A stretch of 64,000 nucleotides of DNA, taken from NCBI GenBank assembly GCA_001464315.1, contig LNFK01000044.1, positions 62,001 to 126,000 of the forward strand, in the 5' to 3' direction. The translations under genes and the position numbers were made by a program. Under the pieces are notes generated by a model that saw only the letters and a list, made by a program, of their open reading frames with translations, was not told the DNA's origin and searched no databases. This document shows positions 13,464 to 17,244 of this stretch, in pieces; positions within the stretch are counted from its first letter, which is position 1; every line of letters starts with the position of its first letter. The stretch is from Sphingomonadales bacterium Ga0077559. Lineage in GTDB: Bacteria; Pseudomonadota; Alphaproteobacteria; Sphingomonadales; Sphingomonadaceae.

Positions 13464-14465
13464 ATGAGCGACACACAAAGTTTCCCCAACACCCGCCTCC
13501 GCCGCAGCCGCGCCACCGCGTGGAGCCGCAATATGGTGCGCGAAAATATCCTGACGCCCGCCGATTTGATCTGGCCGCTATTCGTGACCGAGGGTGAGGG
13601 TGTCGATGAACCGATAGCAACGCTTCCCGGCGTTTCGCGTTGGTCGGTCGACCAGATTGTGCACCGCGCGGACGATGCTATTGAATTGGGCATTCCGTGT
13701 ATCGCGCTGTTTCCCAACACCCAGGCTGACCGGCGCAGCGACGATGGCGCTGAAGCGCTCAACCCCGACAATCTGATGTGCCGCGCGATCCGCGCGATTA
13801 AATCCGCGCATGGTGACAAGATAGGCGTTCTAACCGATGTTGCGCTCGACCCCTATACCGCCCACGGGCAGGACGGGCTCGTCGACGATGCGGGCTATGT
13901 CCTCAACGACGAAACCGTTGCGATGCTGGTCGACCAGGCGGTCAATCAGGCCGACGCCGGAGCCGACATCATCGCGCCAAGCGATATGATGGACGGCCGC
14001 ATCGGCGCGATCCGCAAGGCGCTCGAAATGAACGGGCATAATAATGTTCAGATCATGTCCTACGCCGCCAAATTTGCCAGCGCCTTCTACGGCCCGTTCC
14101 GCGATGCCGTCGGCTCGCGGGGACTGCTCAAAGGCGATAAAAAGGGTTACCAGATGGACCCGGCTAACAGCGACGAAGCCCTGCGTGAAGTCGCAATGGA
14201 CATCGCCGAGGGCGCCGACAGCGTAATGGTCAAGCCCGGACTGCCATATCTCGATATCGTTCGCCGCGTGAAAGACAATTTCGACGTGCCCGTCTTCGCG
14301 TATCAAGTGTCCGGCGAATATGCGATGATCGAGGCAGCCGCTGCCGCAGGTGCAGGCGACCGCGATGCGCTCGTGCTCGAAACGCTGTTGGCATTCAAAC
14401 GTGCCGGCTGCTCGGGCATCCTCTCATACCACGCGGTACACGCAGCCCGCATGCTGAACGGCTGA
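13464..14465 (+). CDS. hemB: Porphobilinogen synthase (delta-aminolevulinic acid dehydratase)
   Basis: 333 aa, normal for HemB. Both Schiff-base lysines are visible: MSYAAKFASAFYGPFRDA and ADSVMVKPGLPYLDIVRR. The metal site region reads LDPYTAHGQDG, without the zinc-binding cysteines, so this is the magnesium-type enzyme typical of alphaproteobacteria. It joins two 5-aminolevulinate molecules to porphobilinogen, the second common step of tetrapyrrole synthesis. The ATG is only 39 bases after the M23 gene stop, so the two may share a transcript. Its 3' side borders the inverted-repeat cassette. Confidence 0.96.
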   Translation: MSDTQSFPNTRLRRSRATAWSRNMVRENILTPADLIWPLFVTEGEGVDEPIATLPGVSRWSVDQIVHRADDAIELGIPCIALFPNTQADRRSDDGAEALNPDNLMCRAIRAIKSAHGDKIGVLTDVALDPYTAHGQDGLVDDAGYVLNDETVAMLVDQAVNQADAGADIIAPSDMMDGRIGAIRKALEMNGHNNVQIMSYAAKFASAFYGPFRDAVGSRGLLKGDKKGYQMDPANSDEALREVAMDIAEGADSVMVKPGLPYLDIVRRVKDNFDVPVFAYQVSGEYAMIEAAAAAGAGDRDALVLETLLAFKRAGCSGILSYHAVHAARMLNG

Positions 14466-14478
14466 AATGACTCAGGGG

Positions 14479-14516
14479 TTCACGCGAAGCTCGCGAAGGA
14501 GCGAAAGGCGCGAAGA
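14479..14516 (+). repeat. Left 38-bp inverted repeat of the GxxExxY cassette
   Basis: The 38 bases from ttcacgcgaagc to ggcgcgaaga match the reverse complement of 14937-14974 at 33 of 38 positions (counted by hand). The repeat ends exactly one base before the ATG at 14517, so it also occupies the place of the ribosome site (gcgaagga and gcgcgaaga). Confidence 0.9.
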
Positions 14517-14936
14517 ATGAGAGGGTCGGTGGAGGAACTTGCTGCGATTGCGGTGGATTGCGGGCGACAAGTTCATAAGGATTTAGGGCCCGGATTGCTG
14601 GAGTCCGCTTATGAATCGGTTTTATCGCATGTGCTGACTAAACGGGGGTTGGCGTTAGAGACTCAAGCTATCATCCCGATTACTTACGATGGATTGAAAA
14701 TCGATCAGGGGTTTCGGGCTGACATAATTGTCGAAGGCAAATTGCTTATCGAACCTAAATCGGTCGAAAGACTGATGCCGGTTCGCGGAAAACATGTGCT
14801 GACATACCTGATGTTCATGAATCTACCGATTGGCTTACTGATGAATTTTTCGATCGAGACATTTCGCGAAGGCCTTAAGCGCATCGTCAACAACCACCAG
14901 CAAACAGAAACTTCAACGCTGAAAATACATCGCTAA
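14517..14936 (+). CDS. GxxExxY protein, PD-(D/E)XK nuclease-like
   Basis: 139 aa. The name-giving motif GLLESAY is at residues 26-32, preceded by HKDLGPG. A nuclease-like pattern follows: Asp69 in RADIIVEG and Glu79-Pro-Lys81 in LLIEPKSVERL, which fits the D...ExK core of the PD-(D/E)XK superfamily to which this family is assigned. Cytoplasmic, no signal. Biological role is unknown. Its codon use is AT-richer than the flanking hemB. Start and stop codons abut two 38-bp inverted repeats with no spare bases, so gene plus repeats looks like one 496-bp unit inserted between hemB and the next gene. Confidence 0.85.
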   Translation: MRGSVEELAAIAVDCGRQVHKDLGPGLLESAYESVLSHVLTKRGLALETQAIIPITYDGLKIDQGFRADIIVEGKLLIEPKSVERLMPVRGKHVLTYLMFMNLPIGLLMNFSIETFREGLKRIVNNHQQTETSTLKIHR

Positions 14937-14974
14937 TCTTCGCGCACTTCACTCCTTCGCGCGCTTCCCGTGAA
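14937..14974 (-). repeat. Right 38-bp inverted repeat of the GxxExxY cassette
   Basis: This begins on the base after the TAA stop (14934-14936) and is the imperfect inverted copy of 14479-14516 (33/38). Outside it the flanks (actcagggg on the left, ttttctttaag on the right) show no obvious target duplication. Confidence 0.9.
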
Positions 14975-15012
14975 TTTTCTTTAAGTCGTAGTCCCATGAT
15001 CGAGCCTGCAAA

Positions 15013-17244
15013 ATGAATTCAGAATCTGCTTCAAACAACAGCCGCAAGCTGTTCCTGCTCACAATATTGACGGGCAGTTTCCTGCTCTTCCTCGTCCAGC
15101 CGATGATTGCACGCATGGCATTGCCGCGATTGGGCGGAGCGCCGGCAGTCTGGAACAGTGCGATGCTGGTTTATCAGGCGCTGCTGCTGGCGGGTTACGC
15201 TTATGCCCACCGCTTGACGCGTGAACCGGCGCGACGGCAAGCCATTATCCATATCGCTTTGTTTGCGGTGGCGCTGCTTTGGCTGCCTCTTGGTCTGGCC
15301 GGATTGCAACCGCCGGCCGACGGATCGCCGATATTCTGGGTGCCGTGGTTGCTGATTGCCTCCATTGGGCCACTGTTCTTCGTGGTCGCCGCACAAGCGC
15401 CTTTAATGCAGCGCTGGTACGCGTTGTCGGGCAATGATGGCGAGCCGTATGCTTTGTATGCGGCCTCCAATATCGGCAGCTTTGCCGGACTGATCGCCTA
15501 TCCGTTGATCGTTGAACCTTTCACGACGTTGCAAAGCCAGAAATGGATTTGGAGCAGCATTTATCTGGCACTGATGGCGCTCGTTGCAATCTGCGCCATC
15601 CAGCTATGGCGCAAATCGGCTGACACGCCCGACGCCCCAACGGTTGCCGAAGAACGCAGCCATATTAGCTGGAAACGCCGACTATACTGGATTGCGCTGG
15701 CCGCTGTTCCGTCCGGTCTGATGCTGTCGACCACATCGCATTTGACCACCGACCTGATGGCGATGCCGCTTTTATGGGTTATTCCGCTCGGCATTTATCT
15801 TCTCAGCTTCAGCATCGCCTTTGCCGACGACCGGATCTTAGCCAATATTTTCACGCGCATGGCCCCTGCGGTGCTGGTCATCGCGGGGTCTTTCGTTTTC
15901 ATCGTTTGGGGGAAAGCGGCGATCAACGGAATGGTCGCGAGCCTCAGCCTTCTGTTCGTCGTCGCGGTATCGCTGCACGCCGAAATGTACCGCACGCGGC
16001 CCGCACCAAGCGAGCTCACCAGCTTTTATCTGATGATGTCGGTCGGCGGCGTCATCGGCGGACTGTTCTGCGCGATATTGGCGCCTTTGGTGTTCAACTG
16101 GACCTGGGAGCACCCGATATTGATCCTGGCGGCAGCGGTGCTGTTACCGAAAGTCGGCCTGATCACGCTTGACCATAAAAATAAGAAAATCGCTGCGGTG
16201 ATGGCCATATTGGGCATCATCGCCATGGCTTTTGCCGTCTATGGCGTGTTGTCCGAACCCGCAGCGATGACCGTCACGAAAGTCATGCTTGCTGCTGCTA
16301 TTATGGCGATCGGGATTGTCACCGCCGGCTTCAGGTTGCCATTCTTGCTCGCGGTGTCCGGACTGCTGACGATTAACGGCGGCTGGGACAATTTGGAGAA
16401 AAGCACCAACGGCTCGCGCATGCGGAGCTATTTCGGTACATATACCGTCACCGACAGCGGCAGCGCGCGCTGGTTAATGCACGGCACCACGATGCACGGA
16501 ATGCAACTGCGCGATGAGCCGACCCGGCCGATCAGTTACTATCCCGTCACCTCGGGCGTCGGAATTGCGCTGACGAAAGCCCCCGAATTATACGGTCCAA
16601 GCGCAAGCGTCGGCGTGGTTGGCCTGGGTACCGGCACGCTCGCCTGCTATCGTAAGCCGGGCCAATATTGGCAGTTTTTCGAGATCGATCCATTAGTAAT
16701 CGAAATTGCGCGTGAGCGTAAAATCTTCTCTTTCCTCGAGAGATGCGCGCCAGACGTGCCGATAACTTTAGGCGACGCACGTCTGACCTTGGCGCAAGTT
16801 CCGCAAGGCAAGTTCGACATGCTGGCGCTCGATGCCTTCTCGTCGGACTCGATCCCGCTGCATTTGCTGACCAAGGAAGCTTTTGCGACGTACAGCAGGG
16901 CGTTGAAGCCAGATGGTTTGCTTTTGGTCCATATTTCCAACCGCTATATCGACCTCAATCCGGTCATCGCCGCCGAGGCAAAAGCAAATGGCTGGCACGC
17001 GGCATTGCGCCACGACCGTCCGACCCAAGCGCTAATGAACAAAGGTGACCGGGCCTCGCAATGGATCGCGCTAAGCCGCGACCGTAACAAACTTGCTGCG
17101 CTGACAGGTAAAGTAGAAACGGTTAAAGACCGCTATTACGTGGCCAACCAATGGCTAGCGCTTGATCCCCCCGGTGATACCGACCCGTGGACCGACGACT
17201 ATGCCTCGGTCCTGCCGCATCTTTCGCTCTGGAAAATATTATGA
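15013..17244 (+). CDS. Fused MFS-like membrane / spermidine-synthase-like protein
   Basis: 743 aa. The N-terminal ~480 residues form a polytopic membrane domain (first helices KLFLLTILTGSFLLFLVQPM and AVWNSAMLVYQALLLAGYAY). The C-terminal ~240 residues are a Rossmann domain of the spermidine synthase type: VGVVGLGTGTLACY (SAM-binding glycine loop), FFEIDPLVIEIARE, and LALDAFSSDSIPLHLLT. Such fusions are common in proteobacteria but have no settled function, and polyamine synthesis is not certain. The stop overlaps the next gene's ATG (ATGA). The gene starts 40 bases after the right inverted repeat of the GxxExxY cassette. Confidence 0.88.
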   Translation: MNSESASNNSRKLFLLTILTGSFLLFLVQPMIARMALPRLGGAPAVWNSAMLVYQALLLAGYAYAHRLTREPARRQAIIHIALFAVALLWLPLGLAGLQPPADGSPIFWVPWLLIASIGPLFFVVAAQAPLMQRWYALSGNDGEPYALYAASNIGSFAGLIAYPLIVEPFTTLQSQKWIWSSIYLALMALVAICAIQLWRKSADTPDAPTVAEERSHISWKRRLYWIALAAVPSGLMLSTTSHLTTDLMAMPLLWVIPLGIYLLSFSIAFADDRILANIFTRMAPAVLVIAGSFVFIVWGKAAINGMVASLSLLFVVAVSLHAEMYRTRPAPSELTSFYLMMSVGGVIGGLFCAILAPLVFNWTWEHPILILAAAVLLPKVGLITLDHKNKKIAAVMAILGIIAMAFAVYGVLSEPAAMTVTKVMLAAAIMAIGIVTAGFRLPFLLAVSGLLTINGGWDNLEKSTNGSRMRSYFGTYTVTDSGSARWLMHGTTMHGMQLRDEPTRPISYYPVTSGVGIALTKAPELYGPSASVGVVGLGTGTLACYRKPGQYWQFFEIDPLVIEIARERKIFSFLERCAPDVPITLGDARLTLAQVPQGKFDMLALDAFSSDSIPLHLLTKEAFATYSRALKPDGLLLVHISNRYIDLNPVIAAEAKANGWHAALRHDRPTQALMNKGDRASQWIALSRDRNKLAALTGKVETVKDRYYVANQWLALDPPGDTDPWTDDYASVLPHLSLWKIL

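Follow-up and report, generated by a model that had tools for sequence, protein, structure and literature searches.

A nuclease-like gene between inverted arms downstream of hemB

Within the window, the 64-kb stretch of DNA analysed here, a gene for a GxxExxY protein lies downstream of hemB and is bounded on both sides by inverted repeats, which we refer to as arms (Table 1). A repeat search of the window returned these as one inverted pair of 38 nt, 87% complementary and separated by 420 nt. Matches occur at 33 of the 38 arm positions, and the local-alignment score of the two flanks was 51, beyond all 2000 dinucleotide-preserving shuffles (maximum 31, mean 16.6); it is the same pair that an earlier note on this DNA had reported. 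Because the open reading frame (139 aa plus stop) equals the whole 420-nt interval, both arms abut the gene with zero bases between, one at the ATG and the other at the TAA, and the statement of that note that the gene fills the cassette exactly is borne out. The gene was also said to be AT-richer than hemB, and its G+C content is indeed 0.471, as against 0.61 for hemB, 0.57 for the downstream gene and 0.605 for each arm. It is single-copy in the window's own genome.

Table 1. The cassette and its neighbours in the window
Feature	Position	Strand	Basis and remarks
hemB (ALAD), left neighbour	13464..14465	+	PF00490; its 3' end is the insertion site common to G249, G268 and G108
Left arm	14479..14516	-	Inverted copy of the right arm; CTTCGCG-type units on the - strand, GTGAA at the outer side
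GxxExxY gene, 139 aa, PD-(D/E)XK superfamily (putative catalytic D69, E79, K81)	14517..14936	+	Open reading frame, profile matches, alignment
Right arm	14937..14974	+	Similarity to the G249 and G268 copies ends at the outer edge, 14974
Right neighbour, membrane / spermidine-synthase-like by the earlier note's naming	15013..17244	+	No Pfam family at E 0.001

The window protein matches two curated models well above their cut-offs, TIGR04256 (GxxExxY; E 5.4e-32, 110.6 bits against 35) and PF13366 (PDDEXK_3; E 2.3e-31, score 109 against 22). All 82 aligned homologues have D69 and K81, and at least 90% of them have E79. The AlphaFold2 model (pLDDT 92.2, pTM 0.86), for which structural comparison was run with VIA-align 2, has a predicted fold resembling Cas4-like, restriction-like and Hjc-like nucleases. 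By these profile matches, conserved residues and modelled fold, the protein is a member of the PD-(D/E)XK nuclease superfamily with putative catalytic activity, as had been proposed from the D69/E79-x-K81 residues.

A sequence search of the PDB detected no relation of the GxxExxY protein to any entry, the Cas4, Hjc and restriction-type PD-(D/E)XK nucleases included (best E 0.31, an unrelated entry), and those nucleases are not known to be bracketed by repeats of this kind. PF13366 was the sole Pfam match between the window arms at E 0.001, so that an HUH Y1 tyrosine transposase is absent there, and the PADLOC and PHROGs models gave 0 families in either set for the window feature (E 0.1). Carriage by plasmids or phages was considered and rejected, the gene family being found in 7 of 72,556 plasmid records and 0 of 50,697 phage records at E 1e-5. 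The genome listing of Chrysochromulina parva virus BQ1, which infects an alga, includes a GxxExxY protein (PMC12085832).

To place the cassette among its relatives, 45 genomes of the window's genus were searched and 20 hemB loci were read. The cassette follows hemB in G000, G249 and G268. In seven congeners (G254, G252, G265, G273, G251, G259 and G262) the homologue of the window's right neighbour stands immediately after hemB; these are the empty sites that the earlier note had thought worth seeking. The remaining ten loci have something else after hemB, without the cassette. The window cassette combines terminal inverted repeats with empty orthologous sites, two features of insertion sequences and transposons. 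DNA similarity between the window and both G249 and G268 does not extend past the outer edge of the right arm. The gene that comes after the G249 cassette, by eye an acetyltransferase, directly follows hemB in G267. The junctions of the congeners compared are too diverged to define any target-site duplication. As a separate observation, the G268 copy after hemB (L122) lacks the segment bearing D69, E79 and K81, with both arms still there. Also, in G108, a genome of another genus, the copy nearest to the window gene lies right after hemB too (L343, G108:C1:130700-132350; 66% identity).

Arms and their units across the gene family

We assembled a set of loci from L001, 30 loci from genomes of the window's family and the best 80 relatives of the window protein from named genomes; the record titles of the latter include Flavobacterium, Akkermansiaceae, Planctomycetota, Acidobacteria, Chloroflexi, cyanobacteria and Ignavibacteria. 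Two of 111 loci were set aside for short flanks, which left 109 for the tests; L002 had been excluded because it duplicates L001, and L021 and L038 represent a single place. Measured from the start and stop codons, an inverted pair with a score of at least 28 was found at 81 of the 109 loci, as against 7 of 641 other open reading frames of the same loci, and the top two scoring frames of that control belong to another protein family. When the search was anchored on the protein domain, 95 of the 109 loci had arms, compared with 404 of 4360 cross-locus pairings of left and right flanks, leaving 14 loci without arms at this threshold. Reversing the letters gave 9 positives and direct orientation 19 on the same 109 loci, because the arms are periodic. 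Another reading of 22 cassettes, of which five also stand in these counts under different ids, gave scores from 32 to 70. Matching terminal repeats at GxxExxY loci, for which the earlier note had proposed a test, are thus the rule; their distance from the start and stop codons, which that test was to compare, varies between loci, and exact abutment occurs only at the window locus.

Read outwards, the arms consist of tandem units of about 8 nt, CTYNGYG-N, mostly three or four per arm, followed by a short outer tail. Unit types differ by locus (CTTTGCG, CTCCGCG, CTTCGTG, CTTAGTG, CTTGGCG and others), and the two arms of one locus agree. Among 39 family cassettes, identity between left and right arms in registered 25-nt alignments was 0.893, as against 0.704 (maximum 0.757) when partners were shuffled, the observed value being reached in 0 of 2000 shuffles; this comparison used only rows in which both arms fit a unit pattern (42 of 74), less three duplicate-id rows. 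Homogeneity extends to the units themselves: for GCG/GTG, the matched units of the two arms are all of one type at 89 of 106 loci, and for CTT/CTC at 86 of 96. The GCG/GTG type requires at least 17 changes on the gene tree. Protein residues 124 and 126 stood out as candidate readers of GCG versus GTG, and were rejected since nothing was significant with the three to four independent pairs on supported branches.

The upstream flanks of 74 family-level cassette rows, five of which are second ids of the same place, form six common sites: fabD-fabG (names by eye; 19 rows), S2 (15), S3 (6), S4 (5), hemB (4) and S6 (4). Downstream flanks agree fully at fabD-fabG and partially at the other sites. The gene tree groups by site, with 7 label changes where the minimum possible is 5 and the shuffled mean is 29.4 (0 of 200 shuffles), so the genes have mostly been inherited in place and moves have been rare, although some occurred, such as L339 inside the S2 clade. 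About five places stand under two ids in the counts of upstream sites, site labels on the tree and unit homogeneity, and in the G.U and A.C counts given below. Inheritance mostly in place, together with patchy presence (54 of 249 family genomes), suggests frequent gene loss. At fabD-fabG, a locus's own arms had a median score of 50 (19 of 19 at or above 28), while the arms of other loci at that site scored 30 (190 of 342 at or above 28), which indicates that the two arms tend to change together in place; at S4, own and other loci's arms scored equally (medians 47 and 47).

Gene-less doublets and their association with the gene

Palindromic intergenic repeats are common in bacteria. The window's genome itself has no detected dispersed arm family, with one forward match at three mismatches and also one in the control, but REPIN-like dispersed doublets were found in other genomes, for example G108, G240 and G305. 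In G108, which has eight GxxExxY matches, a three-unit pattern with at most three mismatches gave 160 matches as against 0 in the control, and a single genome could hold up to 202 arm matches. Outside the window's phylum, 9 of 24 genomes had at least 10 arm matches with at most 4 in the control. The relative G249 has, at G249:C66:5963-6133, an element that lacks the gene and whose four-unit arms are of the window type.

Polarity is fixed in the gene-less doublets, and the genomes examined show a typical doublet length. Among the matches listed, neighbouring arm matches within 500 nt formed 24 pairs in G108, all in -+ order and mostly 48-50 nt apart, and 20 pairs in G305, the genome of the Geothrix locus L094, again all -+, where one pair 424 nt apart probably spans the gene; these counts cover 97 of about 100 listed places in G108 (160 in all) and 49 of 66 in G305. 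G240 gave 19 -+ pairs (mostly 114-121 nt) along with six ++ and three --, as nested sets would. Within G108, the arms of four genes have their nearest dispersed arm at 1, 1, 1 and 2 differences, whereas the four differ mutually at 4 to 9 positions.

Sister genomes differ in their doublets. Both a cassette and a doublet of G108 are missing at the same places in G169. Across a 140-kb comparison, G108 has 15 arm matches at eight places and G169 none; since only about 37 kb aligns, three of the eight places could be compared, of which two are empty in G169 and the third is unrelated sequence in both.

Many doublets themselves lie inside larger palindromes. In four genomes, 29 of 55 dispersed doublets sit in an outer palindrome (p<0.01, composition shuffles). 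The outer element is a pair of CGTC-type REPs in G108; in G066, G240 and G104 it consists of arms from a different subfamily, and either subfamily can be the outer one. The shuffles of this test, like those of the distance, cassette-nesting and Flavobacterium TIGR02436 tests, keep base composition only. Nesting of gene cassettes was rejected as a general feature, with 3 of 79 found in palindromes. Most sampled G108 doublets carry CGTC-type REPs; in the 140-kb stretch all eight CGTC-type REP matches (five places) lie beside CTTTGCG-type doublets (L189-L195, L203-L222), and G169 has none. Because the REPs occur there only beside doublets, the composite may be the multiplying unit in that stretch of G108. 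CGTC REPs are said to have no dedicated transposase (PMC3733652). A set of Russian-doll palindromes was also observed (L254-L265, L281, L289-L291), with one subfamily's arms within another's at about equal distances on both sides; several of these sites in G066, G240 and G104 have an inner GCGGCGAAGCCGC / GCGGCTTCGCCGC pair at the centre.

The doublets are associated with the gene. Counting arms beyond two per gene, subtracted whether or not these match the pattern, at least five extra arms were present in 29 of 54 family genomes with the gene (a class that includes one below-cut-off match, G017), compared with 17 of 195 without it (249 genomes). The earlier note had named equal frequency of the repeats without the gene as an outcome that would count against it; they are instead enriched with the gene, within genera as well. 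When labels were permuted within the 28 mixed genera, the observed value was reached in 0 of 20000 permutations, and the mean arm count was higher in gene-bearing genomes in 20 genera, lower in 6 and tied in 2. Genera having the gene account for 15 of the 17 repeat-rich gene-free genomes, as against 57 of the 178 other gene-free genomes. Hidden PF13366 genes were rejected as the source of these 17, none having a match over the cut-off and one having two weak matches (E 0.04 and 0.27).

A proposed nuclease-driven repeat system weighed against its rivals

The closest likeness is to RAYT (TnpA-REP) enzymes and their REPs, REPINs and REPtrons. There too, a small gene for the enzyme lies next to inverted palindromic repeats or between them, inverted doublets of constant polarity and length are scattered over the genome, each enzyme locus has its own repeat type, and the enzyme is mostly inherited vertically (PMC3116915, PMC3733652). 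Excision of REPINs has been followed by population sequencing (PMC3116915). RAYTs, however, are HUH/Y1 tyrosine enzymes, and their REPs bear GTAG or CGTC tags in place of arrays of CTYNGYG units. A REP with either tag does not flank the window gene, whose arms are CTTCGCG-type arrays with an outer GTGAA. Since both enzyme and repeats are unrelated, the GxxExxY cassette does not belong to that family. TIRtrons (TIRYT), relatives of the RAYTs, resemble it in having a gene flanked by non-REP inverted repeats and moderately abundant dispersed copies, often as dimers (PMC3733652), but their enzyme is again an HUH tyrosine transposase; HUH-type RAYTs are the palindromic-repeat enzymes in the literature examined. 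Pairs of MITEs and insertion sequences likewise have gene-less copies with the same ends as the gene-bearing unit. Unlike these, the GxxExxY cassettes have no known transposase, their arms co-vary in place and their gene is largely inherited in place.

It is rather likely that the window cassette is a lone member of a widespread two-part system, composed of a GxxExxY gene between inverted arms and of gene-less doublets in many genomes. Few common sites, site-grouped trees and gene-less doublets make the window copy look like a module established in place for a long time, and not like a minimal transposon that has just arrived. We infer that the GxxExxY nuclease probably recognises its own arms and drives, or drove, the spread of the palindromic doublets. 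The nuclease would bind the unit arrays, probably as a dimer across two arms and perhaps when these are extruded as a hairpin or cruciform, and would cut at the arms; excision, break repair or gene conversion could then copy arms from place to place. Doublets would spread by such copying, in many cases landing at the centre of other palindromes, and the arms would be kept alike. The overall working would be that of a RAYT/REPIN-like pair with an unrelated enzyme, and in the window genome the single cassette after hemB, mostly passed down at its site, may be what survives of the pair. With more reserve, we tentatively extend this across phyla: the PD-(D/E)XK family might be the engine of previously undescribed palindromic mobile DNA, reading short iterons, spreading doublets and keeping its own arms alike.

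The main rival, which we consider unlikely, is that the doublets replicate through another enzyme or through host replication, with the GxxExxY gene as cargo between two arms. The 17 of 195 gene-free genomes that have at least five arms, without PF13366 over the cut-off, would suit such a passenger gene, as would the composite with CGTC-type REPs in G108 and the largely in-place inheritance of the gene, and there are known cases of RAYT-type enzymes that move families of REPs and TIRs (PMC3733652). Against it, the association of gene and repeat holds within genera (0/20000), and the same gene family recurs between arms across phyla while control frames lack them (7/641). RAYT as a general driver was rejected: a Y1 transposase (Y1_Tnp) was found in only 4 of the 16 genomes searched, most of them repeat-rich, and not in the other 12. 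We regard as improbable an autoregulatory role, in which the arms would serve as iteron arrays akin to an operator, the protein itself or a regulator would bind them to control the gene, and the dispersed doublets would be further binding sites. Tandem units within arms, and the co-variation of all units, are what such autoregulation would give, but an operator needs neither a downstream arm outside the gene nor an exact inverted match, and doublets differ between sister species and can be missing at orthologous places.

Pairing of the arms in a transcript around the gene, for stability or processing as in 23S rRNA intervening sequences, is very improbable. The cassette RNA does fold better than shuffles (z -5.28), as any long inverted repeat would. 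Among the mismatched positions of 104 cassettes, however, the G.U type (77) is not in excess of the A.C type (86; p 0.53); what has been conserved is thus not the ability of the transcript to pair. An Rfam search of 14300-15200 gave no match up to E 5. The RNA-hairpin role that the earlier note had entertained for the repeats thus found no support, and we rejected it as the selected feature. Least probable of all is a homing-like, site-specific element that inserts repeatedly at a few chromosomal sites. The clustering of cassettes at six upstream sites would be expected of it, yet the gene tree by site (7 changes against a shuffled mean of 29.4) fits in-place inheritance with few moves, and arms are also widespread away from those sites. 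In the earlier suggestion of a minimal mobile or homing-like unit, the mobile part agrees with the repeats and empty sites; the homing part found no support, there being no sign of insertion at a fixed recognition gene and the repeats being dispersed without the gene as well.

Returning to the nuclease-driven reading, searches of the literature by family names and repeat terms found no description of such a gene-plus-arm element, in accord with the earlier statement that the arrangement is not described as one. Six arm strings, PDDEXK_3, and four-helix and intervening-sequence terms gave no literature match, and none of the passages on GxxExxY concerned repeats. The exact design of a gene between mirror repeats, with scattered gene-less copies, suggests an undescribed kind of short mobile DNA. 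If this reading is true, evolution would have arrived independently, for a second time, at a counterpart of the RAYTs, and some of the repeat families listed without a transposase would perhaps gain the enzyme they lack. It would also give a function to a protein family so far named only after a motif, and provide a DNA recognition code that changes together with its target (at least 17 unit-type switches), as a directly testable in vitro system.

Another protein shows a comparable arrangement. In Flavobacterium, TIGR02436 four-helix-bundle genes, of the 23S rRNA intervening-sequence type, are flanked by periodic inverted repeats at 14 of 27 loci, with 1 of 27 in the reversed control (L084:2248-2619, L091:2433-2762, L307-L336). 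These genes differ from GxxExxY in protein fold family and in repeat units, and are possibly a parallel system with another protein.
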